Assembly (NCBI GenBank): GCA_913061235.1
Contig: CAJXTB010000039.1
Coordinates: forward strand, 1-33,164
DNA length: 33,164 bases
Direction of reading: 5' to 3'
DNA from: an uncultured Pseudomonadota bacterium
Lineage (GTDB): Bacteria > Myxococcota_A > UBA796 > GCA-2862545
Each line of letters opens with the position of its first letter. Within the stretch, counting starts at the first letter, position 1. Of the stretch, positions 323-30,653 are shown in pieces. The notes under the pieces were generated by a model. That model worked only from the letters and a program-made list of their open reading frames with translations, did not search any database and was not told where the DNA came from. A program made the translations under genes and the position numbers.

Positions 323-3300
323 CTAGCGCTGAGTGGAGCGGCGGCGGCGGATGAGGCCCGCGGCTAGGACAATCCACAAGGAGCCCATCGCGGAGCCACC
401 GGTCACCGAGCAGCTTCCGCCAGCCAGGGTTCCGTTGAGACCGGGAGTCAGCGGGTCAGAGCCGTAGTCGACTTCGTCGCCGTCGTTCATGCCGTCGCCG
501 TCTGTGTCGACAACTCTTGGGTCGGTCTCCAGGGCGTCTTCTTCGCCATCATCGAGGCCGTCGCCGTCGGTGTCGGCCAGCAGGGCGTCCGTTCCGTTGA
601 CGTACTCCTCGCCGTCGGTCATGCCGTCAGCATCGGTGTCGTCGCTGTTCGGGTCGGTCAGGCTGTTCACCTCATCGCCGTCCTTGCGGCCGTCGCCGTC
701 GCTGTCATCGTCCATGGGGTTGGTCTGGGCGTAGGCTTCGTCGCCGTCGTTCAAGCCGTCGTCGTCGCTGTCATCGTCCATCGGGTCGGTGCCGTTGTCG
801 CGCTCGTCGCCGTCGGTCATGCCGTCGTTGTCACTGTCTGCGGCCAGGGGGTCGGTTCCGTCGTCGAGCTCGTCACCGTCTCGCACGCCGTCATCGTCGG
901 AGTCTCCATCGAGGGGGTTGGTTCCCTCTAGGCGCTCATCGGCGTCAGAGATGCCGTCGTTGTCGCTGTCGGACCGGTTCGGATTGGTGCCTTCGTCGAT
1001 CTCGTCACCATCGGAGATGCCGTCGTTGTCGCTGTCCGGGTTGAGCGGGTCTGTGCCGACGAGCAGCTCGGTGCTGTCTTCGCTGCCGTCGTCATCGGTG
1101 TCGCTGTTGAGCGGGTCGGTTCCGGTGACGAAGAGCTCTTCACGGTCGGAGAGACTGTCGTTGTCGGTGTCCCAGCTGTACGGGTCGGTTCCGACGAGTG
1201 GGTCGACTTCTTCGTCGTCGGTCATGCCGTCGTCATCAGAGTCGGTGTCGCGGAAGTTGGGCAGGCCGTCTTCGTCGGGGTCGCCTGCACCTTCGTCGTC
1301 GTTGCTCAGGCCGTCACCGTCAACGTCGTCGTCTTCCGCATCGCTACAGCCGTCGGCGTCGAGGTCGGTCTCTTCGGCGCTGGTCCAGTCGCTCTGGCCG
1401 TTTGGACAGCTGTCTGCTGCGTCCAAGATGCCGTCGTTGTCGTCGTCATCGTCTTCGTCGTCGGAGCAGCCGTCGCCGTCTTGGTCTTCGCCGCCATCGC
1501 CGAGTGCGCAGGCATCTTCGGTGTCAGAGACGCCGTCGTTGTCGTCATCTGCGTCTTCTTCGCTGTCGTCTCGGCAGCCATCGGCGTCGTAGTCGGTGAG
1601 GGGGCTTGAGGCCCACATGGCGTCGCCGCGGGCACAGTCGTCTTCGGCGTCGCTGATACCGTCGTTGTCGTCGTCTGTGTCTTCATCGCTGGAGTCTTGG
1701 CAGCCGTCGGAGTCGTTGTCGGTCTCTGGGCCAGCGACCCAGCTCATCTCACCGGTGGCGCAGGCGTCATCGGTGTCTGAGACGCCGTCGTTGTCGTCGT
1801 CTGTGTCTTCATCGCTGTCTTTGCAGCCGTCTTGGTCACGGTCATTGTCCAGGGCGCTAAGCCAGCCGGTCGTTCCTCGTGCGCAGATGTCGGCGGCGTC
1901 GCTGATACCGTCGTTGTCGTCGTCTGTGTCTTCTTCGCTGGAGTCTTGGCAGCCGTCGGCGTCATGGTCAGACTCGTTGTCTGAGAACCAGTCGATGTCT
2001 CCGGTTGCGCAGGAGTCGTCACCGTCTGAGATGCCGTCGTTGTCGTCGTCCTCGTCTTCGTCGCTGTCGTTGCAGCCGTCGGCGTCGTGGTCGCTGGTGT
2101 TGTCAGCGACCCAGCCCATCAGGCCGGTGGGGCAGTTGTCGCTGACGTCGGCAACCGCATCGTTGTCGTCGTCCTCGTCTTCGCTTGCGTCCTGGCAGCC
2201 GTCGCCGTCGAAGTCGGTCTGTGGGGTGCTCACCCAGCCGCTCTCGCCGGCGGGACACGCGTCGTTGTCGTCGTCAATGCCGTCGCCGTCTTCGTCGAAT
2301 CCTTGGGCATCTTCAATGATGAGCGGAGCGTCTTCCTCGGTGAAGGTGCAGCCGTTTCCGTCGTCAATACGAACGGTGTACTGGCCGTTTGCCAAAGACT
2401 CTTGCGGGATGTCGTAGTCGGAGCTTGTGGCGCCATCAATGGCTTGGCCGTCGAGGAACCACTGGTAGGAAACGCCCTCGACCTGCGGAGCGCTCAGGGC
2501 GTAGCCGGATTCTGCATCACCGCCGACGCCCATTGTGGCGCTGAAGGCTTCGGTGTGGTTGATGTTGATCTCGTCAAACATCAAGTGCACGTACCCGGAG
2601 TCGGGGTGGGTCATGGCGGCACCCGGGCCAATGATGATGCCGGCGTAGTCGCTGGTTGGGGTGAATGTGGTCGAGACCTTGACCCAGCCATCGGACGGCT
2701 GCAGGTCAACCGGAATGCGCACCAAGACGTCTTGCGGAATGTTGGCGTCGGTCTCCAAGTCTCCGCTGGTGTTGAGCGGGAAGGACGTGGCCGTGGTTCC
2801 GAACACGGTGATGTCGCCTGCCGAAGCGCCGCCGTAGGAGGTGGCACTGGGGACCGCGGTCCAGAACTCCAAGGTGTATTCTTGTCCGGAGATAAGCGGC
2901 TCAACGGTGTTGTTGCCGATGTACTCGATGTAGCTGCCGTTGGAGAGCGCGCCTACCCAGGCGTCTCCAGCGGGGAACTCGCCTTCAATCGCGCCAAATC
3001 CTGAGTAGTAGAACCCGCACGCGAAGTAGTCCGAGGTGGCCCCAGTCGCTTGGCTCCAGTGTTCCGCGTAGCCAGTGATCTGACTCGGAGAGTTCGGGCA
3101 GTTTCCGTCGATCTGGTCTTGGAACGACGGGTTTAGGATGAGGCTGGTGACCTCAAAGTTGGCGAAGAGGTCCGCATCGCAGGTGCAGTCGGGGTCGTCG
3201 TAGTCGACCAATCCATCCCCATCACTATCTAGGCCGTCGGCACAGGCGTTGACGCCGGACTCTGGGAAATAGGCGGGGTCGAAGTAGTCGGGAATGCCGT

Positions 3301-4195
3301 TTTGGTCGGCATCTCCGGCTCCCTCATCTGCGTCTGAGACGCCGTCGCCGTCGCTGTCGTCGTCATCTACAGCATCGATTCCGTCGCCGTCAACGTCGCC
3401 GTAGAGGGCTTGGTCTCGAATCTCTTTGCCCTGTGGAATACCGTCGTCGTCGCCATCTTCACAGACGTCAGGAATGCTGTCGCCGTCGTCGTCGCCGATT
3501 GCGCTGTCGGCCATGGTGACGGTTGGGAAGGCGTGACGGGACTTGGACCCTCCGGTCGAGCCGGTGAGGCCGACCCAGAAGTCGTCTCCGAGAATGCCGG
3601 CAACGTCAACGGTCTCAGTCATGACGGGCGAGGCTGGCTTGACGTTGGTCTGGGCGGCGTACACTTCAATCACGCCATTGACGACGTCTACCCAGACATG
3701 TGTGCGAGAATTCTCAAGGGTCCAGGCGGGTGTGTAGGTGGCCGTGTGTGAGGTGGCGTTGCCGCCGGTGACCAGGCCAATGTGGTTGTCGTCGGGGTCG
3801 CCTGAATTGGTGTAGGTGTCGAACTCAATCGCGATGCTACGGGCGAGGCCGTTGTAGCCAATGCCGCCACCGGAGGCGCCAATGGTTGATGCGCTCTCGT
3901 TCTGCATGACGAACGCAACGCCGTCTGCGCCGGCTCCTTGCGAGGTAATGTTGGCTTCGAAATACGCGTGGAGTTCACCAGATGTGGAGACCTTCTCGTT
4001 GAACCAGATGGCTCCGGACTGGGTGTTAAGGTCGGCGGTGACCTGAAGTTCGCCATTGTTGATGACGGCGTTGTTGACCAGTGCCAGGGGCGTTGCGTCG
4101 CCCCCTTCGGTGTAGCAGACCTCAACGGCGCTGGCGGTGGATGTCAGGACCAACAGGAGAAGTCCCATTGGCGCGGGGAATGCGGCCCAGTTCAT
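323..4195 (-). CDS. Giant surface protein: L-type lectin, adhesin-like domain, two type 3 repeat arrays, MYXO-CTERM-like tail
   Basis: 1290 residues. The ATG at 4195 has GAGG five bases upstream and begins a clear signal peptide (cleavage near Ala23), so longer upstream frames are not used. Residues 25-235 resemble an L-type (legume-like) lectin domain, with DGVAFVMQN, GIGYNGL, IAIEFDTYTN and the acidic DPDDNHIGLV loop that in this family helps bind calcium and sugar. Residues 235-340 are type 3 repeats. Residues 345-545 start with LILNPSF and look like the galactose-binding-type beta-sandwich of bacterial cell-surface proteins. Residues 555-630 are Ig/PKD-like (YQWFLDG). Then come eight 41-42-residue Cys-containing repeats and about eleven 22-residue GTDPxxxDSDNDG repeats. 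The C-terminus has a GGSCSVTGG motif, a hydrophobic helix and RRRR, as in myxosortase substrates. Inferred role: a calcium-stabilised adhesin or matrix protein anchored in the outer membrane. Confidence 0.9.
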   Translation of the reverse strand: MNWAAFPAPMGLLLLVLTSTASAVEVCYTEGGDATPLALVNNAVINNGELQVTADLNTQSGAIWFNEKVSTSGELHAYFEANITSQGAGADGVAFVMQNESASTIGASGGGIGYNGLARSIAIEFDTYTNSGDPDDNHIGLVTGGNATSHTATYTPAWTLENSRTHVWVDVVNGVIEVYAAQTNVKPASPVMTETVDVAGILGDDFWVGLTGSTGGSKSRHAFPTVTMADSAIGDDDGDSIPDVCEDGDDDGIPQGKEIRDQALYGDVDGDGIDAVDDDDSDGDGVSDADEGAGDADQNGIPDYFDPAYFPESGVNACADGLDSDGDGLVDYDDPDCTCDADLFANFEVTSLILNPSFQDQIDGNCPNSPSQITGYAEHWSQATGATSDYFACGFYYSGFGAIEGEFPAGDAWVGALSNGSYIEYIGNNTVEPLISGQEYTLEFWTAVPSATSYGGASAGDITVFGTTATSFPLNTSGDLETDANIPQDVLVRIPVDLQPSDGWVKVSTTFTPTSDYAGIIIGPGAAMTHPDSGYVHLMFDEININHTEAFSATMGVGGDAESGYALSAPQVEGVSYQWFLDGQAIDGATSSDYDIPQESLANGQYTVRIDDGNGCTFTEEDAPLIIEDAQGFDEDGDGIDDDNDACPAGESGWVSTPQTDFDGDGCQDASEDEDDDNDAVADVSDNCPTGLMGWVADNTSDHDADGCNDSDEDEDDDNDGISDGDDSCATGDIDWFSDNESDHDADGCQDSSEEDTDDDNDGISDAADICARGTTGWLSALDNDRDQDGCKDSDEDTDDDNDGVSDTDDACATGEMSWVAGPETDNDSDGCQDSSDEDTDDDNDGISDAEDDCARGDAMWASSPLTDYDADGCRDDSEEDADDDNDGVSDTEDACALGDGGEDQDGDGCSDDEDDDDDNDGILDAADSCPNGQSDWTSAEETDLDADGCSDAEDDDVDGDGLSNDDEGAGDPDEDGLPNFRDTDSDDDGMTDDEEVDPLVGTDPYSWDTDNDSLSDREELFVTGTDPLNSDTDDDGSEDSTELLVGTDPLNPDSDNDGISDGDEIDEGTNPNRSDSDNDGISDADERLEGTNPLDGDSDDDGVRDGDELDDGTDPLAADSDNDGMTDGDERDNGTDPMDDDSDDDGLNDGDEAYAQTNPMDDDSDGDGRKDGDEVNSLTDPNSDDTDADGMTDGEEYVNGTDALLADTDGDGLDDGEEDALETDPRVVDTDGDGMNDGDEVDYGSDPLTPGLNGTLAGGSCSVTGGSAMGSLWIVLAAGLIRRRRSTQR
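464..1192 (-). repeat. 22-residue (66 bp) tandem type 3 repeat array
   Basis: About eleven units fit G-T-D/N-P-x3-D-S/T-D-x-D-G-x2-D-G-D-E-x3. Ten are exactly 22 residues and the outermost is 23. The DNA shows the matching 66-base period of gccgtcg/tcgtcgctgtc motifs. Each unit presents the DxDxDG loop typical of calcium binding. The units are diverged, so this is an old expansion rather than a recent slippage array. Confidence 0.85.
1310..2257 (-). repeat. 41-42-residue Cys-paired type 3 repeat array
   Basis: Eight units begin at Cys647 of the encoded protein (codon ending at 2257). The consensus is C-P/A-x-G-x3-W-x6-T/S-D-x-D-x-D-G-C-x-D-x3-E-D-x-D-D-D-N-D-G. Each unit has two Cys about 20 residues apart, and most have one Trp in between. 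The seventh unit is shortened to 34 residues and has lost the Trp segment. The even Cys count suggests one disulfide per unit. Confidence 0.8.
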
Positions 4196-4328
4196 GTGTA
4201 CCTCAAGGTGGGGAGAAACGTGACACCGCTCTGGGGAGAGGAAGGTGCACTGATGGTCGTCGTCACCTGGCAGGCGGATGTTTAGGAGCGAGCGGTTAGA
4301 GGGCGGAAAACTGTTCTCTGGAGAGTCC

Positions 4329-4973
4329 ATGTACGACCGCATTGCCTTCACCTGGCTGCCTATGAAAGACGTCACCCGCACGCGCGCCTTCTACGAAGAC
4401 ACCCTCGGCCTGACCCTTGGGCTCAACGGCGGCGGCGGAGCGATGAACTGGATTGAGTACGACCTGCCGAACGGCGGCTGTTTGGCGCTGTTCGACGGGG
4501 TTCCAGACGCGCCTCTTGGCGGAAACGTGGTGTTTGAGGTGCTCGACCTTGTTGGCGAGATGGAGCGACTCAAGGGGTTGGGGGTGGTCTTCGTCTCCGA
4601 CATCATCAACTCGCCGGTGTGCCAGATGGTGGGGTTTGTAGACCCGGACGGAAACCAGCTTATGCTGCATCAGCTCCGCGACCAGACCCGCGTTCAGCCC
4701 GCTACTTACGGGCTCATCGGCAAGTTCACGGCCACAGCGGGGGACCGGGCGGCCCTCATGGAGGCGCTTCCCTCCAACCACCGCCAGATGCCTGGGTGCA
4801 AGCGCTACGACGTGCGGCCGGATGCGACAGATGCGGATGTTGTCTGGGTCACCGAGCAGTGGGTGAGCGCGCAGTTTCACAGCGACTCGCTGAAGCTGGA
4901 GTATGTGCAGGCGGCGATTGCCAAGGGACGCCCGTTCATTGCGGGAATGGAGCGGATTGCCACGACCGGTTAG
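4329..4973 (+). CDS. VOC (glyoxalase-type) domain fused to an ABM-type domain
   Basis: 214 residues. ATG 4329 has GGAG five bases upstream; an earlier frame opening lacks this. Residues 1-117 fit a glyoxalase/bleomycin-resistance (VOC) module: KDVTRTRAFYEDTLGL near the N-terminus, a central FEVLDL strand and the closing GFVDPDGNQLML. Residues 126-212 look like an antibiotic-biosynthesis-monooxygenase (ABM/YgiN-like) ferredoxin-fold domain, with YGLIGKFTATAGDR, a middle PGCKRYDV, a VTEQW strand and a C-terminal helix. VOC proteins use a metal to handle small molecules such as methylglyoxal or quinols; ABM domains are often cofactor-free oxygenases. The substrate cannot be told. There is no signal peptide, so it is cytoplasmic. 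It lies 48 bases before the next gene, likely one transcript, and diverges from the lectin gene. Confidence 0.85.
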   Translation: MYDRIAFTWLPMKDVTRTRAFYEDTLGLTLGLNGGGGAMNWIEYDLPNGGCLALFDGVPDAPLGGNVVFEVLDLVGEMERLKGLGVVFVSDIINSPVCQMVGFVDPDGNQLMLHQLRDQTRVQPATYGLIGKFTATAGDRAALMEALPSNHRQMPGCKRYDVRPDATDADVVWVTEQWVSAQFHSDSLKLEYVQAAIAKGRPFIAGMERIATTG

Positions 4974-12832: not shown

Positions 12833-15142
12833 TCACTGAGTCGAGTCAGAATCCGCGTCTGCTGGGGCAAATCCCAGAGCCCGGCGGAGGTCGGGTGGGA
12901 GCCTGTCCAGGTCGCCGTCCACCAGGGTCGGGCCGGCTTGGGTTCGCCGTGCTGCTGGCTCCGCGTGGCTGTCGCGAATCCGCTGCATGACCGCCTTGAA
13001 ATCCTCCCTTTGCCGGAGCGTCACCAGGTCTGGGTCACCGCGCAGGTGGCGCAACCTTAGAAACCCGTGGTCCACAGCACGTTGGAGTGCTGGAACAGCG
13101 ACGTCTGGATTACCGGCCAACGCTTCGACACATGCGAGGTTGTAGTCGACTCGCCATCCGTCGGGCCGGTACTGTCGGGCGGCGTCTAGTGTGGTGCGAG
13201 CGCCGTCGAAGTCCCCTTTGTAGGCGAGTGCGAGACCGACAAGGTTGTGCAGGATGTAGTGGCTCGGGGAGAGGGCCAATCCAGCAGTGTAGTGGACAAT
13301 GGCGGCGTCCCAATCCCCATGCTGGGCGGCAATCTGTCCGCGAACCTGATGGCTGTCGGGTCGGTTGGGGTCAGCGTCGATGACGGCCTGCATGTGTGCG
13401 TCAGCAGCCGGGTAGTCGCCACGCGCGACATCGATGCTAGCGAGCTGCGTCATTGTTGCGATGTGGTTTGGGACCATGGCGAGGGACGCCTGGGTCGCTG
13501 CCTCTGCCTCGTCCAGATTACCGGCCCGGAGCTCAATGGTTCCAAGTGAGGTCAGCGCACGGCTCTGGCTCGGGTCAATCTCGAGGGAGTGAACGATGAA
13601 CGCACGTGCCGCATCCCAGTCCTTCTGCTGACGTGCGATGATGCTCTGTGTGTTGATGGCGGCGATGTGGTTGGGGACGTCTTCGACGAGGGACGCCAGA
13701 ATGGTCTGTGCAGACTTGGTGCGCCCCACGGCCATGGCGTGTCGAGCCCGCTGTAGGCGCGCTTGGGTACGCACTGCCTGTTTCGGGTCGAGACCTGCGA
13801 CGGACACGCGCTGTTCTTGCGGCGCGAGGTAGCCGAGGGCGTACAAGGTCTCCAGGGTGGCTTGGTCCATGGGGCGCTCGTCGACATCAATAGCGGCTTG
13901 TTCTGCGGACGTACGCAGAGCGATGAGTGCTGCAGACAACGAGACGTTCTCTGGGTCTGCCATTGGGGATGCTGGGGCCAGATTTGTGAGCTCACCCGGG
14001 TCGGACGCGAGGTCGTACAGCTCTTCTTCTGGCGCCTCAATGAACTTGTGGTGACCCAGATGAATGCCGAACAGCGGTGCGGTTCCGAAACCACTGCTCG
14101 CCAGCATGGATTCCATGTATTGGGGGTTCGCCGGTGCTGGAACGTCGCCGCGAAGGGCGGGGCCGAGGTCGAGTCCTTGCATACCCGGTGGGGATTGCAG
14201 CCCGAGCATCCCCAAGGCAGTCGGCATGACGTCGATCAGGCTGATGTTGCCGTCGTATGAGACGTCCGAGATGAGGCTCGGATGTGCCCACACCATCGGC
14301 ACCTTGATGGTTGCGTCGTACACGAACAATCCGTGGGTCTTCTCGCCGTGCTCACCCAGCGATTCACCATGGTCTGCGGTCACAATGACCAAGGTATCCT
14401 GTAGAACCCCTTGAGCCTCCAGCGCGGCGAACAGGCGGCCCAGCTGCTGGTCGGCAAAGGAGACTTCGGCATCGTACTCACTGATGGCCAGCGGGAAGGC
14501 GCGCGACGCGTCTGGGTTGTGGGGAAGGTGCGGGTCGAACAGGTGCACCCAGGCGGCAAAGGGTCTGTTCGAGTCACGGTCGTTGGTGACCCAGTCTATG
14601 ACGGAGTCGACAGTCCGGTTCGCGGGTCGATTGCGAAGCATGAATGCCGGAGCATCGTCTTCTGCCCACAGGTTGTCGTCGTACAGATCAAAGCCCTGGT
14701 CGAGCTGATAGCTCCGCTCCAGCACGACACTCGAGACGAATGCTGCTGTCTGATAGCCGGCGGCCTGGGTGACCTCTGCCAGGGTGACGGCGTCCGTAGA
14801 CAGCGCGTTCACTGAGTTGTCGCGCACACCATGTGTGGGGGGCAGCAGACCGGTGAGCAGGGAGCTGTGTGCGGGTAGCGTGACCGGGGCGGTGGAACGG
14901 GCTTCGCTACACCAAACGCCGCGCTCGGCCAGCCCATCGAGTGTGGGCGTGTGGGTCAGCGGACCTCCCGAAAAGCCAACGCGGTCGTGGCGCAGCGTGT
15001 CGATGGTGACCACCAGCAGGTGGACCGGCCTCGCGGGCGGCTGTGCGGTCGTACAAGGGCCAATGCAGCCGGTGGCAAGGAGCGGAAAAATTAATCGCAA
15101 TGCACGCAATGGTGTTTGTCCGACTTGACGAATGGGTGTCAC
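12833..15142 (-). CDS. Sulfatase-fold hydrolase with C-terminal TPR repeats, lipoprotein
   Basis: 769 residues from GTG 15142; TTG 15109 gives a shorter signal peptide and is also possible, and neither has a good ribosome site. The lipobox LATGC places the lipidated Cys at 26. Residues 40-400 are an alkaline-phosphatase/sulfatase fold: VVTIDTLRHDRVG (metal Asp48), APVTLPAHSSLLTG, and TADHGESLGEHG (Asp257, His258). Where sulfatases have the Cys or Ser that becomes formylglycine (C/S-x-P-x-R), this protein has Thr88 in a T-L-P-A-H context, so the nucleophile is probably Thr. That favours a phosphodiesterase, phosphotransferase or modified hydrolase over a true sulfatase. From about 455 to 720 there are some seven TPR units (e.g. 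ALTSLGTIELRAGNLDEAEAAT), a protein-docking scaffold. An envelope location is inferred. Confidence 0.88.
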   Translation of the reverse strand: MTPIRQVGQTPLRALRLIFPLLATGCIGPCTTAQPPARPVHLLVVTIDTLRHDRVGFSGGPLTHTPTLDGLAERGVWCSEARSTAPVTLPAHSSLLTGLLPPTHGVRDNSVNALSTDAVTLAEVTQAAGYQTAAFVSSVVLERSYQLDQGFDLYDDNLWAEDDAPAFMLRNRPANRTVDSVIDWVTNDRDSNRPFAAWVHLFDPHLPHNPDASRAFPLAISEYDAEVSFADQQLGRLFAALEAQGVLQDTLVIVTADHGESLGEHGEKTHGLFVYDATIKVPMVWAHPSLISDVSYDGNISLIDVMPTALGMLGLQSPPGMQGLDLGPALRGDVPAPANPQYMESMLASSGFGTAPLFGIHLGHHKFIEAPEEELYDLASDPGELTNLAPASPMADPENVSLSAALIALRTSAEQAAIDVDERPMDQATLETLYALGYLAPQEQRVSVAGLDPKQAVRTQARLQRARHAMAVGRTKSAQTILASLVEDVPNHIAAINTQSIIARQQKDWDAARAFIVHSLEIDPSQSRALTSLGTIELRAGNLDEAEAATQASLAMVPNHIATMTQLASIDVARGDYPAADAHMQAVIDADPNRPDSHQVRGQIAAQHGDWDAAIVHYTAGLALSPSHYILHNLVGLALAYKGDFDGARTTLDAARQYRPDGWRVDYNLACVEALAGNPDVAVPALQRAVDHGFLRLRHLRGDPDLVTLRQREDFKAVMQRIRDSHAEPAARRTQAGPTLVDGDLDRLPPDLRRALGFAPADADSDSTQ

Positions 15143-15152
15143 GGAGTGTAAC
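15125..15152 (+). promoter_or_regulatory. Candidate sigma70-type promoter for the MYXO-CTERM protein gene
   Basis: TTGACG (15125-15130), a 16-base spacer and TGTAAC (15147-15152) match the -35 and -10 consensus at 5/6 and 4/6 positions. The ribosome site GGAG at 15165-15168 would lie a few bases inside the transcript. The site falls within the first codons of the divergent sulfatase-fold gene if that gene starts at GTG 15142. Confidence 0.35.
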
Positions 15153-15174
15153 CAGCGGGTACTTGGAGATGACA

Positions 15175-16428
15175 ATGCGTACAGTTATTTTTCTTAGCAT
15201 GCTCGTGGCCGGTCCGGCATTTGCCGGTAGTGAAACCCAGGTTGAGGGCCCTGACGGCCTTGAGTGGGACGTGAGCAGTGGTGTGTTTGATGACGCCACG
15301 TTCTTCATCGACCCACCCCGAGTCGAGACGAGCACGTACACCACGACCACCACCACGACCGAGGGTGCTGTCTCTACGTACACCACGACCACCACCACGA
15401 CTGTCTCTACAGAGCGCTCGGATGCGTTTGACGGCTACCTGTATGTCTTCAGTGTGGCGGCTGCGCCTGATGCCGTCGCGGGTACGGTCTCGGACTATGA
15501 AGGCCTAGCAAGCGACACAGTGCGCTCTGCTTCCTTCGAATACGAACCCAGCACCACCGAGTGTGAAGGACAACAGCTTCGTTTTTCGCAGGCTCCGATT
15601 TTGGTCGAAGAAGAGACCCCTCGTCGCGGCGGTCCTCAGCCTACCGAAGCCACAGTGTTGTCGTTTGAGCGTGTGGTCTATGTGAGCCCAACCCAGACCT
15701 TCGGACGCCTGCTGACGCTCGCAACGAATGAGACCGATACGGCGGTCACCGCTTGGATTGCGCATGACGGCAACCTGGGCTCAGACTCCGATACGATTAC
15801 CGTCGCAACCTCCAGTGGAGACACCACCATTGGTGTAGACGATAACTGGGTAGTTACGGGCGGTGACCCCGACGACCCCGAGGTCGGACACCTCATTCAA
15901 GACGATTCAGGCAGCTCGCGCGCGGTTGTTGCCGTTCGCTACGATGACGATTCTCTGGCGTGGATCTACCCCGTCACGGTCGCACCCGGTGAGACGGTCG
16001 CCATTGCCAGCTTCGCAATGCTGACTGCGGATGACACCAGCACGGCACTGGTGTCCGGCGCTGTGGACAGCGTTGGTGCCGACCTGCTCGCGTGTATGAC
16101 CGATGACGAGAAGGCAGCTGTCCGTAACTTCGACTTCAGCGACACAGACGAGGACGGCGTTGAGGCCATCTTCGACAACTGTCCCGATGATGCGAACGCC
16201 GACCAAGCAGATGCAGATGACAACGGCGTGGGTACGGTCTGTGACTCGGATGAAGAGGCCGACACCGAAGTGGACACGGACACGGACACGGACGCGGACA
16301 CGGATGCGGACTCGTCCGACCCCGTTGACGAGCCTTCCGGCTGTGGCTGCACGAGTGCACCTGTTCCAATGAGCGCCATGTGGCTTGTCGGTGCACTTGC
16401 TCTCGTTGGACTTCGCCGCCGTCGCTAG
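15175..16428 (+). CDS. Exported protein with type 3 repeat and MYXO-CTERM-like sorting tail
   Basis: 417 residues. ATG 15175 has GGAG six bases upstream; the ATG at 15169 abuts that site and is unlikely. The signal peptide is MRTVIFLSMLVAGPAFAG. A Thr-rich segment near residues 53-80 contains a 14-residue tandem duplication (STYTTTTTTT twice). The central 220 residues, beta-rich and with few landmarks, match no family I can name. Residues 320-350 hold a type 3 repeat (DTDEDGVEAIFDNCPDDANA), followed by an Asp/Thr linker (DTDTDTDADTDAD). The end is PSGCGCTSAP, a hydrophobic helix (MSAMWLVGALALVGL) and RRRR, close to the MYXO-CTERM signal thought to be processed by a myxosortase, leaving the protein on the cell surface. 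No sortase gene lies in the window. Stop 14 bases from a convergent gene. Confidence 0.88.
   Translation: MRTVIFLSMLVAGPAFAGSETQVEGPDGLEWDVSSGVFDDATFFIDPPRVETSTYTTTTTTTEGAVSTYTTTTTTTVSTERSDAFDGYLYVFSVAAAPDAVAGTVSDYEGLASDTVRSASFEYEPSTTECEGQQLRFSQAPILVEEETPRRGGPQPTEATVLSFERVVYVSPTQTFGRLLTLATNETDTAVTAWIAHDGNLGSDSDTITVATSSGDTTIGVDDNWVVTGGDPDDPEVGHLIQDDSGSSRAVVAVRYDDDSLAWIYPVTVAPGETVAIASFAMLTADDTSTALVSGAVDSVGADLLACMTDDEKAAVRNFDFSDTDEDGVEAIFDNCPDDANADQADADDNGVGTVCDSDEEADTEVDTDTDTDADTDADSSDPVDEPSGCGCTSAPVPMSAMWLVGALALVGLRRRR
15334..15401 (+). repeat. 42-bp in-frame tandem duplication encoding Thr-rich units
   Basis: A 26-base stretch starting acgtacaccacgaccacc occurs at 15334-15359 and again, identical, at 15376-15401. 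The period is 42 bases, or 14 codons, so the frame is kept. Exact identity at the DNA level suggests a recent duplication or slippage. The Thr-rich product looks like a flexible, possibly glycosylated stalk. Confidence 0.85.
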
Positions 16429-23599: not shown

Positions 23600-25480
23600 A
23601 TGTTGCGTTCGTCTGTATTGTTGGTGTCTTTGCTCGCTATCACTGGTTGTACCGAAGGTTCCGACCTGGAGCTCAGCCCGAGCCTCAGCCAAGTGCGCTA
23701 CGGCGTTGTGTTGGCGGAAGACCTGGATGAACAAGTCATTCTTCCAGAAGCACGCTTCATTCGCGGCGTGACCATCGGCAGCGAAGACGACGCCGCCTAC
23801 CCCCAAGTTCCGGGCCTGCTCACGCCAGAGCAGTTCGAGAACCTCGCGGACTTCGAAGACGACCCCACCCCTCTCGATAACCACACGTCGAACAGCTACA
23901 CCCGCGCCATCGGTGACCTGTACGACCAGGAAGAGGGACGCATCAACTTTGATGACGTCAAGCAGGGCGCCATTGGCGACTGCTACTTTGTAGCCGCACT
24001 CTCCGCAGTGTTGTACGCAGATGTCGACGGCCGCGTTCGGGACAGCTTCATTCGCCCCGTGCGCGATTCAGCCGGTGACCCCGAGCACTACGCGGTTCGC
24101 TTCTACGACTACGCCGGCCGCCCGCAAGACGTCGAGGTCGACGCCGACCTGGTTCGAAGCGGAAGCGGAAACCCAACCTACGCGCGCTCCGCAGACAGCG
24201 TTCGCGGAGACGAAGAGTGGGCCATCAGCTTGCTTGAGAAGGCCTACGCCAAGTGGCACGGCGACTACGAAGAGATCGGTGACGGCGGCTCCCCCGGAGA
24301 CGTCATGCAGGCGCTCACCGGCAGTCACAGTAGCTACCGTCGGGTCAAGTACCTGTCGGACAGCTCGGTGCTCAAGACCATCCGCGATGGTGTCGCTGAG
24401 AACCGCCCACTCACGGCCCTGACCTACGGCGAAGACGATGGTGTCGACTACGCTGGAACCGGCGTCTACGCATGGCATGCCTACACTCTGATGGGCGCGC
24501 GTGAGACCGAAGAAGGCGTGGTCATGGTCCAGCTACGCAACCCTTGGGGAAGCGGCGAGCCAGCAGACAACGGAGACGACGACGGTATCTTTGAGATTAC
24601 CGGCGAGACCTTCCGTCGCTTGTACGTTGGCATTGGCATTGGTGGCGGCTTGAACCCGGACACCGTGGCTCCCAACGCAGTCAATGACTTCGCTACCGAG
24701 AGCCAGACAGACGGCGCTGTGGTCCTGACCTGGACCGCCACTGGCGATGACGGGCGCAATGGCCTGGCCTACCGCTACGACCTGCGTCAGTCGGCAAGCC
24801 CCATCACCGCTGACAACTTCTACGAAGCCACCACGGTCCCCGTTGCAGACCCGCAAGCACCGGGCAGCGACGAGACGGTTGAAGTCACCGGCCTGACAAA
24901 TGGCGCTGCGGCGTACTTCGCGATTCGCATTGAAGATGAGTCGGGCAATGTCTCGGGTGTCAGCAACGTGGTCACCGCGACACCGGCTCCAGTGAATGTG
25001 GAGCTCGACCCGAACGCTGTCGTGCTCGACTTCGAGTCCACCCACTCCAACATCCTCGAAGATGGCTTGTTCCACTTGTCATCCACTCACACCGTAGACG
25101 GCGACACCGCAATGTACTGCGGCGACGAAGCCTCGGGAACGTACGACGTCTCGAACCCCGAAGGTGCCCTGTACATCGCGGAAATCGACCTGTCCTTGTA
25201 CGCCGCACCGGTGGTCATGTGGCAGCAGCGCATTCAGACCGAACAGACCAGCGCCTACGACCGCGCATGGTTGGAAGTCTCCAGTGCTGACACTAGCTGG
25301 GCGGTTGTGTGGGAGCGCGCAGAAGTCAACAACGGCGCACTTCAGACCATTACGGTGGACCTGTCCCAGTTTGCCGGTGAGACCATCGACCTGTTGTTCC
25401 AGTTCGACGCCAACGGCGACGCTGCCAACGACTACGCTGGCTGGATGATCGACGACATCACCTTCACAACCGCCCCTTAG
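23600..25480 (+). CDS. Calpain-like cysteine protease lipoprotein with FnIII-like and jelly-roll domains
   Basis: 626 residues. ATG 23600 has AGGGG six bases upstream. The signal peptide ends in lipobox AITGC, so Cys17 is lipidated. Residues 110-345 are a calpain (C2 peptidase) core with the whole triad: Cys128 in KQGAIGDCYFVAALSAV, His293 in YAWHAYTLMG and Asn314 in LRNPWGSGE. Residues 355-460 resemble a fibronectin type III domain (DGAVVLTWTATGDDG, ITGLTNGAAAYFAIRI-like). Residues 470-626 are a beta-sandwich of the MAM/immune-inhibitor-A type, ending NDYAGWMIDDITF. Calpains cleave proteins at few sites and are often calcium-dependent; the calcium sites cannot be seen here. Likely on the outer membrane facing substrate proteins. 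It heads a tight group with the acyltransferase and hydrolase genes. Confidence 0.92.
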   Translation: MLRSSVLLVSLLAITGCTEGSDLELSPSLSQVRYGVVLAEDLDEQVILPEARFIRGVTIGSEDDAAYPQVPGLLTPEQFENLADFEDDPTPLDNHTSNSYTRAIGDLYDQEEGRINFDDVKQGAIGDCYFVAALSAVLYADVDGRVRDSFIRPVRDSAGDPEHYAVRFYDYAGRPQDVEVDADLVRSGSGNPTYARSADSVRGDEEWAISLLEKAYAKWHGDYEEIGDGGSPGDVMQALTGSHSSYRRVKYLSDSSVLKTIRDGVAENRPLTALTYGEDDGVDYAGTGVYAWHAYTLMGARETEEGVVMVQLRNPWGSGEPADNGDDDGIFEITGETFRRLYVGIGIGGGLNPDTVAPNAVNDFATESQTDGAVVLTWTATGDDGRNGLAYRYDLRQSASPITADNFYEATTVPVADPQAPGSDETVEVTGLTNGAAAYFAIRIEDESGNVSGVSNVVTATPAPVNVELDPNAVVLDFESTHSNILEDGLFHLSSTHTVDGDTAMYCGDEASGTYDVSNPEGALYIAEIDLSLYAAPVVMWQQRIQTEQTSAYDRAWLEVSSADTSWAVVWERAEVNNGALQTITVDLSQFAGETIDLLFQFDANGDAANDYAGWMIDDITFTTAP

Positions 25481-25488
25481 GGGTTGTG

Positions 25489-26127
25489 GTGGGCGGTCAT
25501 TGGCTAGATGTTGCCACGTGGCCGCGAAAGCAGGCGTTCTCGTTCTTCTGTGGCTTTGATGACCCGTGGTTCAACCTCACGGTAGAAGTCGATATTGCGC
25601 CGTTCAAGGCGTGGTGTCGTACACACGATGTTCGCCTAAGCTTAGGGCTGTGGTTCGTTGTCGCCCAGGCGGCAAACGCGGTGCCGAACTTTCGGTACCG
25701 AGTGCGTGAGGACCGGGTGTGGGTGCACGATGCCGTGCGCGTGGGGGCGACTGCACTGCGTGATGACGGTAGCTTCCTGTACGTCTACTACCCGCATGAT
25801 GCCGATGTCTTCGCGTTCCAGGCTCTAGCGGGTGCCGAGCTCCGGGCCCGTCTAGACGACGGCCTGCTTCTCCCTGAGCAGGGAGACGACGACCTGCTTC
25901 ACTGCACCAGCATTCCGTGGTTGCGCTTTACCAGCCTCAAGCATGCGAGCCCGGGCCCGAACAGCGGCTCGGTGCCGAAGATTGCGCTAGGCAAGGCGAC
26001 TCCAGACGGCGATGCGTGCTGGATGCCGGTGAATATTGAGGCGCACCACGCACTGGTCGATGGCCTGCATGTTGGACAGTTCATCGAGGCCATGACCGCG
26101 GCCATGAAGACGCTTTCGGCATCGTGA
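25489..26127 (+). CDS. Chloramphenicol-acetyltransferase-like acyltransferase
   Basis: 212 residues. GTG 25489 is chosen because GGGG (25480-25483) then sits five bases upstream; a GTG at 25486 is too close. The fold markers of the CAT family are present: TWPRKQAFSFFCGFDDPWFNLT near the N-terminus and the catalytic HHALVDGLHVGQFI near the C-terminus, where the second His (187) is the general base and Asp191 its structural partner. CAT enzymes form trimers and move acetyl groups from acetyl-CoA to hydroxyls. Resistance to chloramphenicol cannot be assumed, since many chromosomal relatives act on other molecules. No signal peptide, so cytoplasmic. The ribosome site overlaps the stop codon of the protease gene, and its own end overlaps the hydrolase start. 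Confidence 0.88.
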   Translation: MGGHWLDVATWPRKQAFSFFCGFDDPWFNLTVEVDIAPFKAWCRTHDVRLSLGLWFVVAQAANAVPNFRYRVREDRVWVHDAVRVGATALRDDGSFLYVYYPHDADVFAFQALAGAELRARLDDGLLLPEQGDDDLLHCTSIPWLRFTSLKHASPGPNSGSVPKIALGKATPDGDACWMPVNIEAHHALVDGLHVGQFIEAMTAAMKTLSAS

Positions 26128-27541: not shown

Positions 27542-28846
27542 CTACTCGACTGTGACCGTCACGCGGGACAGGTTGTTGTCTTCGTCGGACTCGGTGACTT
27601 GGTTGTTGGTGTCGGCGAACAGGACGGACGACCAGCTTGCGAGCGGAGCGTCGTCGACGGAGAAGACCAGAATGCGGGTCTCACCGGCGGCGAGAGTCTC
27701 TTGGAACTGGAAGTCGTCGCCCAAATCGTCCACCACGGGGTCGGCAGAGACGTCCAAGAAGAGGTCGACCCAGAAGCCTTCCGCCGGCGCGCTCCCTGTG
27801 TTGGTCAGCTCCACTTCGTACAGCGTACTGATGCCGTCGGACAGGCTCTCAACGTTACGAATGGACAGGTCCGGACGTTGGGAGGACACCACCACATTGC
27901 GCGGGCCGCTGACGTTGTTGCTCTCGTTGGTCTCGGAGACCCGATTGTCCAGGTCCACGGTGACCCAGGAGCTCATGGTTCCGGACGGCAAGTCGGTCAA
28001 GGTGAGGCGAACCGGAAGGGAGGTCCCGGCGGCGAGGCCCGGAATCCACGCCAAGTCGTCGAGTGGGTCGCTGGTGGTCGGTGCTGACGGCTGGTCGGTG
28101 AACAAGTCGAGCCAGAAGCTGCCGGCGTTTCCGGCGCCTCCGTTGGTGATGACGACGTCATACGCGACGTCTGTTCCGCTGACGGTGGCTTCAAAGAACG
28201 TGATCTGAAGGTCCGACTGAACAATCGGCTCGCCTTCTGGCACCACGGTGACGCTGACGGCGGCGGGAGAGCGCTCGGGACAGGTGGCCGAGATGTCTGT
28301 GCTGCCGGCGCGAATGGCCCGTACATTTCCACCCGTTACCGTGGCAATGGCGACGTCAGAGGAAGACCACTGGCACGACCCGCCGATCTGACCGGTGGTG
28401 GTGTCAGCGTAGGTGGCAATGACCTGGATGTCTGCGCTGTCGCCGATTGCCAGGGTGAGCGTGCTCGGCGTAGCGGCGACGGAGGTGGGCGGGTCCTCCG
28501 CGTTGCGAACGGTTGTCGCGGTTCGCGCGGAGAGCTCACCGAAGGTGGCAATGACCGAGGTCTCTCCGACCGCAACCGCTGTCCCAACACCCTCGTTCAT
28601 GGTCAGGACACGCGTGTCTTCGCTAATCCAGCTGACGCCTTCCAGAAGCGTAGACGTCTCGTTCTCGTAGAAACCGCGGGCCTCGAAGGTCAGCGTGTCA
28701 CCCTGGGTCAGAGTGGGCGAGAACGGTGTGATGCTCATGCCCACAAGCTCACCACGGTCGGGTTCCGTTCCGGTGTCGCCCGTGTCGGTGCCTGGGCAGC
28801 CGGCGAGCAGGAGGGGAAGGAGAATAAGTGAGGGGCGGTACAGCAC
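27542..28846 (-). CDS. Lipoprotein with bacterial Ig-like and CARDB domains
   Basis: 434 residues from GTG 28846, which has GGAG five bases upstream and starts exactly at a lipoprotein signal peptide; longer frames do not. The lipobox LLAGC gives Cys16, followed by PGTDTGDTGTEPD, an acidic linker. Residues 35-215 hold two Ig-like (BIG_2-type) domains with SWISEDTRVLTM and CQWSSSDVAIATVTGGNVRAI. Residues 220-434 are two CARDB repeats with matching NNQVTESDEDNN and NRVSETNESNN turns (DLSIRNVESLSDG marks the second). CARDB domains are adhesion-like spacers in surface proteins. There is no catalytic domain. It is probably an outer-membrane surface protein. It may share a transcript with the AlkB-like gene six bases downstream. 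Confidence 0.9.
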   Translation of the reverse strand: MLYRPSLILLPLLLAGCPGTDTGDTGTEPDRGELVGMSITPFSPTLTQGDTLTFEARGFYENETSTLLEGVSWISEDTRVLTMNEGVGTAVAVGETSVIATFGELSARTATTVRNAEDPPTSVAATPSTLTLAIGDSADIQVIATYADTTTGQIGGSCQWSSSDVAIATVTGGNVRAIRAGSTDISATCPERSPAAVSVTVVPEGEPIVQSDLQITFFEATVSGTDVAYDVVITNGGAGNAGSFWLDLFTDQPSAPTTSDPLDDLAWIPGLAAGTSLPVRLTLTDLPSGTMSSWVTVDLDNRVSETNESNNVSGPRNVVVSSQRPDLSIRNVESLSDGISTLYEVELTNTGSAPAEGFWVDLFLDVSADPVVDDLGDDFQFQETLAAGETRILVFSVDDAPLASWSSVLFADTNNQVTESDEDNNLSRVTVTVE

Positions 28847-29043
28847 ATTGGCTCCGGGCAGAGTGTGCCGGATAACCGATGGGCGCGTCCCAGAATGATT
28901 TCTGGTCATCGCCCGATGCAAGGTCCGGTGGATGCCGTCGCCTCACCACACAAGAAAGGTCGCAGCCCGCGTCTCCAGCACTACGCGTTCAGTGAGGACA
29001 ACATCCGCAGCAGCGGTGCGACAGGTAGATCTGCTGCCCACGC

Positions 29044-29096: not shown

Positions 29097-30653
29097 CTAC
29101 AGAGCGCAGGTATTCGCGAGTCCCGGAGAACCGGTGCCGCCCGGGTAGGTGCCCGAGTCGATACACCAGTTGCTTCCAGCGTCGTTAGCGATCTCTGGGT
29201 CAGCATCCGTGACCACTGTAGGAGACAGGGCAACGCTGATTCCGCCTGCTGGCGCGGGGAACGTGTCATCGTTGCCGTTGTCGCTGTCGCCCCAGGCGAT
29301 GACGTCAATGAGCTGCTCTCCGCATGAGATACGGGCTTCGTCTCCGCCGGACAGGGCCACGCCGCCTGCGTACACGTAGTCAGGCACAAATCCGGCTTCC
29401 GCGGCATTCTTGGCCAAGGTTGCGTAGCCGCCCGACTCAACGATGACGGTGTCGGCGATAGTGTGGTTGTCCGTGTCGAGGTCGCCCACCGTGCAGCCGC
29501 CGAGGTTCAGCGGTCCGCCGGTGGTGTTGTACACCTCAATGAACTCGCCTTGGGTCGGGGAAATCATGTACTCGGTCACAATGACTTCGCCGGCCACGGA
29601 GGGGTTCGGTGGAACGCACTCGCCGTCTGTGCTGCAGCTAAAGCCGTCCTCCGAACACGAGCCGAACAGGTTGCTCGGGCTGCAGGGCTCTGATTCGCAG
29701 GCGCTGGCACACTCGGGGTCGGTGCAGTCGCTCAGGCCGTCGCCGTCGTCATCTAGGGTGTTTCCGCAGTCTTCGTTGACCGACGTGCACACGGTGATGG
29801 CGGGGTTGGCGTAGCAGTTGTTGTCCGCGCAGTCGATGCTGCCGTCGTTGTCGTTGTCGAGGCCATCTGTGCAGGCCGCGTCATCGTCTTCACCGTTGCA
29901 GTGAGGGCTGTCCGAGCAGCCTCGGAAGTCGTCGCAGTCGATGAGCGCGTCGCCGTCGTTGTCTAGGCCGTCTTCGCACAGCTCTTCTTCTTCGAAGGAC
30001 ACGCAGTAGCCGACTTCGTCGCAGTCGCTGTCATCGCAATCCACGCGGTCGTCGCCATCATTGTCTAGGCCGTCTCCGCACAGTGTCGCGGTGTTTTCAA
30101 CGCCGTCATCGCTGTCGCAGACGGTGACGTCCGGAGATTCCGTGCACTCGCGGCTCAAACAATCCGTACGGTCGTTGCCGTCATTGTCGATGCCGTCGCT
30201 GCACAGGTCGTTGGTGTTCTCGTCTGGGCAGGCGGCGTCACCGAGACAAGCGAAGTCGGCACAGTCGGCGAATCCGTTGCAGTCGTTGTCGATGCCATCG
30301 TCGCAGCTGGTCTCGCCGTCTTGGCGTAGAGGGTCCCCGATGGGCGGACAGATGGAGCATCCGAGCTCGTCTCCGTCAAAGACGGCGTTGCAGTCGTTGT
30401 CCACGTTGTCCGAGCAGTCCTGCCACGAGACCTCAGCGGTCACGCTGGCCACGCAGTCGTCATTTGTGTCGGGGTCCGTGTCTGGATCGGTATCGCCCTC
30501 CGTATCTGTGTCGGTGCCGACGTCGGTATCGGTATCGACTTCGGTGCCTTCTGCGGTGTCCGTACCCAGATCGGTGTCACCGGTGTCTTTGTCTGGGCAG
30601 CCGAGTGTGCACAGTGCGGCTCCGAGTAGGAGCGAGCGAAGAAGGCGGTTCAT
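29097..30653 (-). CDS. Lipoprotein with Cys/Asp repeats and lamin-tail domain
   Basis: 518 residues. ATG 30653 has GGAG five bases upstream. The lipobox CTLGC places the lipid on Cys19, followed by a long Asp/Thr/Gly linker (residues 20-68). From about 70 to 350 there are seven repeats of the form CxDGxDNDxDxxxDCxDxxC (CSDGIDNDGNDRTDC, CGDGLDNDGDDRVDC, CEDGLDNDGDALIDC and others), a calcium-type loop with paired Cys common in myxobacterial surface proteins. Residues 355-518 are a lamin-tail (LTD) domain: VIVTEYMISPTQGEFIEVYN and LNLGGCTVGD through the C-terminal SPGLANTC. Bacterial LTDs occur in secreted nucleases and surface proteins; here no nuclease is attached. Probably an outer-membrane surface structural or binding protein. 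Confidence 0.92.
   Translation of the reverse strand: MNRLLRSLLLGAALCTLGCPDKDTGDTDLGTDTAEGTEVDTDTDVGTDTDTEGDTDPDTDPDTNDDCVASVTAEVSWQDCSDNVDNDCNAVFDGDELGCSICPPIGDPLRQDGETSCDDGIDNDCNGFADCADFACLGDAACPDENTNDLCSDGIDNDGNDRTDCLSRECTESPDVTVCDSDDGVENTATLCGDGLDNDGDDRVDCDDSDCDEVGYCVSFEEEELCEDGLDNDGDALIDCDDFRGCSDSPHCNGEDDDAACTDGLDNDNDGSIDCADNNCYANPAITVCTSVNEDCGNTLDDDGDGLSDCTDPECASACESEPCSPSNLFGSCSEDGFSCSTDGECVPPNPSVAGEVIVTEYMISPTQGEFIEVYNTTGGPLNLGGCTVGDLDTDNHTIADTVIVESGGYATLAKNAAEAGFVPDYVYAGGVALSGGDEARISCGEQLIDVIAWGDSDNGNDDTFPAPAGGISVALSPTVVTDADPEIANDAGSNWCIDSGTYPGGTGSPGLANTCAL

Follow-up and report, generated by a model that had tools for sequence, protein, structure and literature searches.

The 33,164-nucleotide stretch of DNA analysed here (the window), one whole contig of a 7.2 Mb source genome in 72 contigs, comes from an uncultured myxobacterium-like bacterium and encodes a 626-residue protein (lipo-calpain; 23600..25480, + strand, ATG start) whose identification as a non-classical calpain with a lipid anchor and an intact catalytic site is well supported. 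The calpain family itself is already known; what is unusual in this calpain is its lipidation and its FnIII-MAM tail. Its gene is paired with that of a second lipoprotein, an Ig-fold protein built of Big_2 and CARDB domains, and on the basis of sequence and gene arrangement we favour, with moderate confidence, a reading in which lipo-calpain is an extracytoplasmic, probably surface-located, C2-family protease that would act with or on this partner.

The N-terminus of lipo-calpain is well constrained, since the open frame extends just 3 codons upstream of the ATG, and because other genera have full-length homologues that are 44-48% identical, the ORF cannot be due to chance. The protein begins MLRSSVLLVSLLAITGC, a lipoprotein signal peptide (23600..23650, +) with the lipobox ITGC and the predicted lipidated Cys17, followed by TEG; those homologues whose N-terminus is covered also carry a lipobox-type N-terminus. 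We infer that Sec exports the protein and that a lipid on Cys17 then anchors it in the envelope. Its location is probably the outer membrane, because the residue after the lipidated cysteine is Thr and not Asp.

The protease core occupies residues 21-351 (23660..24652, +). Peptidase_C2 (PF00648) matches residues 115-320 far above threshold (E 1.2e-23; 84.1 bits, where the cut-off is 23.8), and a sequence search of the PDB gave strong matches to calpains alone (best E 3.8e-12). Among the filled rows of an alignment of 40 sequences, the catalytic Cys128 (codon 23981..23983, +) is Cys in 39/39 rows, His293 (24476..24478, +) is His in 37/37, Asn314 (24539..24541, +) is Asn in 36/37, and the oxyanion Gln122 is kept in 39/39. 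These counts bear on whether the core might be a non-catalytic binding module, with the FnIII-MAM part as an adhesive tail. Non-peptidase calpain homologues do exist (PMC4631099), but without selection for catalysis the triad would be expected to be lost, and since almost every filled row keeps both the triad and the oxyanion Gln, we consider such an adhesin very improbable.

We also modelled lipo-calpain with AlphaFold2 from the 40 sequences (mean pLDDT 81.9) and compared the model with the PDB. Residues 21-351 adopt the two-part PC1-PC2 calpain core fold and superpose on the calpain-1 core 1zcm with Z 26.6 and an rmsd of 3.4 over 261 residues (VIA-align), the best match; among the PDB matches listed for the catalytic core, no papain-like family other than the calpains appeared. 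Residues 21-110 align with the beginning of the calpain core, and their assignment as a propeptide is not favoured. The best structural matches (Z about 26) are inhibitor- or calcium-bound cores, and the whole m-calpains 1df0 and 1kfu, which are calcium-free forms, align with Z 17-18. As modelled, the active-site arrangement appears assembled, with a possible prediction bias toward solved forms: many solved calpain cores show the active, calcium-bound arrangement, and AlphaFold may lean towards it for that reason.

The cores of human calpain-1, -2 and -3 share with lipo-calpain the fold (Z 25-27, 21-24% identity), the triad and the site-1 calcium acids. Calpain-1 D106 and E185 of site 1 correspond to D119 and E205/206, the alignment being ambiguous by one residue between the two glutamates; D119 is kept in 37/39 and E206 in 38/39 filled rows. 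Site 2 is partial, with E320 and D328 kept in most relatives and Ile330 at the position of the third acid, E333. Site 1 is present in only some bacterial calpains (Rawlings 2015, PMC4631099), and here calcium may stabilise the core through Asp119 and Glu205/206. Whereas the human calpains are cytosolic, lipo-calpain is predicted to be extracytoplasmic, with site 2 only partly kept. It differs from the classical calpains also in what follows the core, where FnIII and MAM stand in place of the C2-like and penta-EF-hand domains; Pfam gave no EF-hand match in lipo-calpain, which places it outside the classical calpains.

In the model, the FnIII domain (residues 355-464; 24662..24991, +) matches PTP-delta Fn1-Fn2 with Z 12.5 and an rmsd of 2.1 over 98 residues, and its sequence gives a weak match to the C-terminal part of the NCBIfam hCaCC model (E 2.2e-8, far below cut-off). 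The MAM-type jelly-roll (residues 470-626; 25007..25477, +) aligns over 141 residues with 8a28, the zymogen of a LAST-MAM astacin (Z 15.7, rmsd 2.5), with the meprins at Z 15.3 and with gingipain adhesin domains at Z about 12. Its Pfam InhA-like_MAM score of 19.3 bits lies below the cut-off of 26.9, and we therefore call it a MAM-like fold only. Meprins and LAST-MAM astacins likewise place a secreted protease before the MAM domain (Z about 15 to that of lipo-calpain), although their catalytic domain is a metalloprotease unrelated to calpain. Signal, FnIII and MAM parts are common to the homologues at 44-48% identity. A first-pass annotation of this DNA had described a lipoprotein signal, a calpain core with the triad C128, H293 and N314, and FnIII-like and jelly-roll modules, and had proposed an overlay on calpain and on other papain-like families; the signal, the Pfam and PDB matches, the near-invariant triad, the two tail folds in the AlphaFold model and the overlay all bear it out.

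That annotation also called calpain cores uncommon in bacteria. The statement fits the published survey of bacterial calpains (Rawlings 2015, PMC4631099), but it does not describe this order, in which 45/63 genomes encode a calpain domain, mostly C-terminal and without a signal peptide, nor the source genome, where only the window copy among four calpain ORFs has a lipoprotein signal. What is unusual is the lipidation and the tail, rather than a calpain domain in a bacterium. The surveyed bacterial calpains (MEROPS C2) have Peptidase_C2 and the Cys-His-Asn triad in common with lipo-calpain; among them, however, a signal peptide occurs in 3/66 members, the peptidase domain is usually C-terminal and the terms lipoprotein and fn3 are absent from the survey (PMC4631099). 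In lipo-calpain, by contrast, a lipid-anchored core comes first, at the N-terminus, and FnIII-MAM comes behind it. The same survey describes a Cyanothece calpain homologue with nine CARDB domains in one protein. A literature search on myxobacterial lipo-calpains found nothing relevant.

A GTDB genome search with an alignment of calpain cores as query returned relatives mostly from Myxococcota MAGs, in which the calpain domain almost invariably closes the protein and none showed a convincing lipoprotein signal; a single-protein query gave no match, and a full-length alignment had no stretch conserved enough to serve as one. A plasmid search gave a single weak Calothrix match (29.7% identity). 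Nine lipo-calpains form one clade with support 100/100, so lipidation is a property of the clade, which includes two short members without the tail (L071 and L124). One genome, G018, has expanded its lipo-calpains to several copies (L006, L038, L045, L046, L047); one member of a tandem pair there is without the MAM domain, and one copy has its FnIII region broken by a TAG stop.

Elsewhere in the source genome, two calpain-domain ORFs without a signal peptide were found (G000:C51:4510-5139 and G000:C23:20703-21179; L036 and L037), one with SH3_3. A 2672-aa protein with eCIS_core (DUF4157) has a calpain as its final domain, C-H-N residues included (G000:C5:78154-78747; L035:8077-16092:-), and has the appearance of an effector that an extracellular contractile system would inject. 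It shares catalytic family and genome with lipo-calpain but has no signal peptide, carries its calpain domain C-terminally and belongs to a separate clade.

The calcium-repeat-rich surroundings of the gene had been taken to point to nearby repeat proteins (TSP3 and MopE) as possible substrates. This neighbourhood argument fails because such repeats occur throughout the genome, with at least 120 TSP3 and 150 MopE matches on many contigs, and no recurrence of repeat proteins was found beside the homologous calpains; on these grounds we reject the neighbourhood as evidence for those substrates. The window also encodes a protein that joins a legume-lectin domain to bacterial TSP3 repeats (326-4381, -), a predicted lipoprotein with a sulfatase domain followed by TPR repeats (12836-15175, -) and a lamin tail domain (LTD) lipoprotein (29100-30653, -) that adjoins the partner gene.

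The partner gene (27542..28921, -; likely start near 28846) encodes a protein with a lipoprotein signal and, by Pfam, two Big_2 and two CARDB domains. It lies tail-to-tail with a full-tail lipo-calpain in 7/7 genomes from seven genera, a convergent orientation that does not imply co-transcription, and comparison of the flanks of the homologous lipo-calpain loci found no other shared gene. The stop-to-stop gaps are 3 bp (L006), 175 (L039), 723 (L040), 495 (L041), 64 (L042), 801 (L043) and 2065 bp in the window, where the two are separated by three genes, for a CAT-family protein, an alpha/beta hydrolase and a 2OG-Fe(II) oxygenase. The CAT-family acyltransferase (25486..26127, +; Pfam CAT E 1.6e-20) begins 5 bp past the calpain stop, has no counterpart at the homologous calpain loci and separates the calpain from its partner in the window alone; the alpha/beta hydrolase gene overlaps this upstream chloramphenicol acetyltransferase-like gene. 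Modelled with a pLDDT of 81.6, the partner is a string of beta domains that matches the Big_2 pair of Leptospira LigA (Z 14.8) and the CARDB of PF1109 (Z 13.6), whose structure holds two metal ions, with a weak match to the two C-terminal barrels of animal transglutaminases. Unlike LigA and PF1109, the partner combines two Big_2 and two CARDB domains in one protein, beside a calpain.

Presence and absence of the two genes agree. The calpain-side clade of partners (type A) is absent from 55/56 other genomes of the order; in the exception, G007, the type A gene lies 366 bp from the contig end, and the contig stops before a calpain could appear. Calpain and partner are present or absent together in comparisons within the same genus (G014 versus G002, G018 versus G009) and the same family (G031 versus G022). 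The hypergeometric probability of the co-occurrence is 1.4e-8, uncorrected and made too optimistic by kinship, and the contrasts within genera g3 and g10 and family f3 agree with it. Because the partner gene lies near the full-tail lipo-calpain in all seven genomes that have this calpain, the enzyme would seem to act on this lipoprotein, or together with it, outside the cell.

The same data speak to a less likely account, in which lipo-calpain serves scavenging or predation, as a general extracellular protease breaking down foreign proteins for food, the partner gene being an inherited and functionally unlinked neighbour. Secreted enzymes with a degradative role often carry adhesive FnIII-MAM tails, and calpain domains are abundant in Myxococcota. 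G018 has expanded calpain copies without the partner, none being found within 1.8-2.8 kb of three further copies, and the loci of the short lipo-calpains L071 and L124 also have no partner. In addition, the divergences of calpain and partner over the seven genomes show no correlation (r = -0.18, p = 0.73), and co-divergence is rejected. Against these points stand the pairing across seven genera, in which other neighbours were not kept, and the same-genus genomes that have both genes or neither; moreover, calpains are limited-cleavage rather than bulk-digesting enzymes. We consequently give the scavenging account a minor share, and prefer a lipo-calpain that would make limited cuts at the envelope, as a cysteine endopeptidase using Cys128-His293-Asn314, with the FnIII-MAM modules holding it to its target and the Big_2-CARDB lipoprotein as its most likely cognate partner, whether substrate, docking site or regulator.

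Big_2-CARDB paralogues without a calpain partnership are widespread in the order. In a tree, the calpain-side partners, with G007 and one G005 copy, separate from a sister clade of 16 paralogues (split 100/99), and at 14/22 paralogue loci a TGase_elicitor match lies directly before the paralogue on the same strand. The three such neighbours read with Pfam are lipoproteins with TGase_elicitor and HHH_3, and a GHCNGW motif is conserved in 5/5 neighbours read. TGase_elicitor-type lipoproteins fused to a ComEA-like HHH_3 domain were seen at L148:8786-11161:-, L149:3178-5385:+ and L156:4392-6629:+, each ahead of a Big_2-CARDB lipoprotein.

Since the paralogues adjoin a different papain-like enzyme, a putative transglutaminase, a role of the partner as substrate or dock is slightly preferred over that of a regulator. 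One regulatory role would be that of an Ig-fold inhibitor, chagasin-like, keeping the membrane-bound calpain off the cell's own surface. Chagasin-type and Ig-like inhibitors of papain-like peptidases are known, the partner is a string of beta domains, and its paralogues pair with two different papain-like enzymes. No chagasin-type structure was found among the partner matches listed, which does not prove its absence, and no short invariant inhibitor-type loop could be picked out of the partner alignment; by analogy, such an inhibitor would be conceivable but improbable.

GP42 transglutaminase is the Phytophthora enzyme of the TGase_elicitor type. With GP42 and calpains both treated as papain-like (PMC10318531) and the paralogues beside TGase_elicitor lipoproteins, one lipoprotein family is thus paired with two papain-like envelope enzymes. 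We tentatively propose, at well under even odds, a modular envelope system in which every lipid-anchored papain-fold enzyme, calpain in one branch or TGase_elicitor-type in the other, has a Big_2-CARDB lipoprotein of its own, from one family, to which it is genetically coupled; in such a system, and as tentatively, this lipoprotein might be the cognate substrate, dock or regulator of each enzyme.

Almost nothing is known of the roles of bacterial calpains, and the 2015 survey lists one that had been studied biochemically, Porphyromonas gingivalis Tpr (PMC4631099). A membrane-anchored calpain clade with a conserved candidate partner turns this open question into a two-protein experiment, and it raises the question of whether calcium controls calpain proteolysis outside the cell. 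If the modular system is true, a bacterial extracytoplasmic calpain would have a defined partner.
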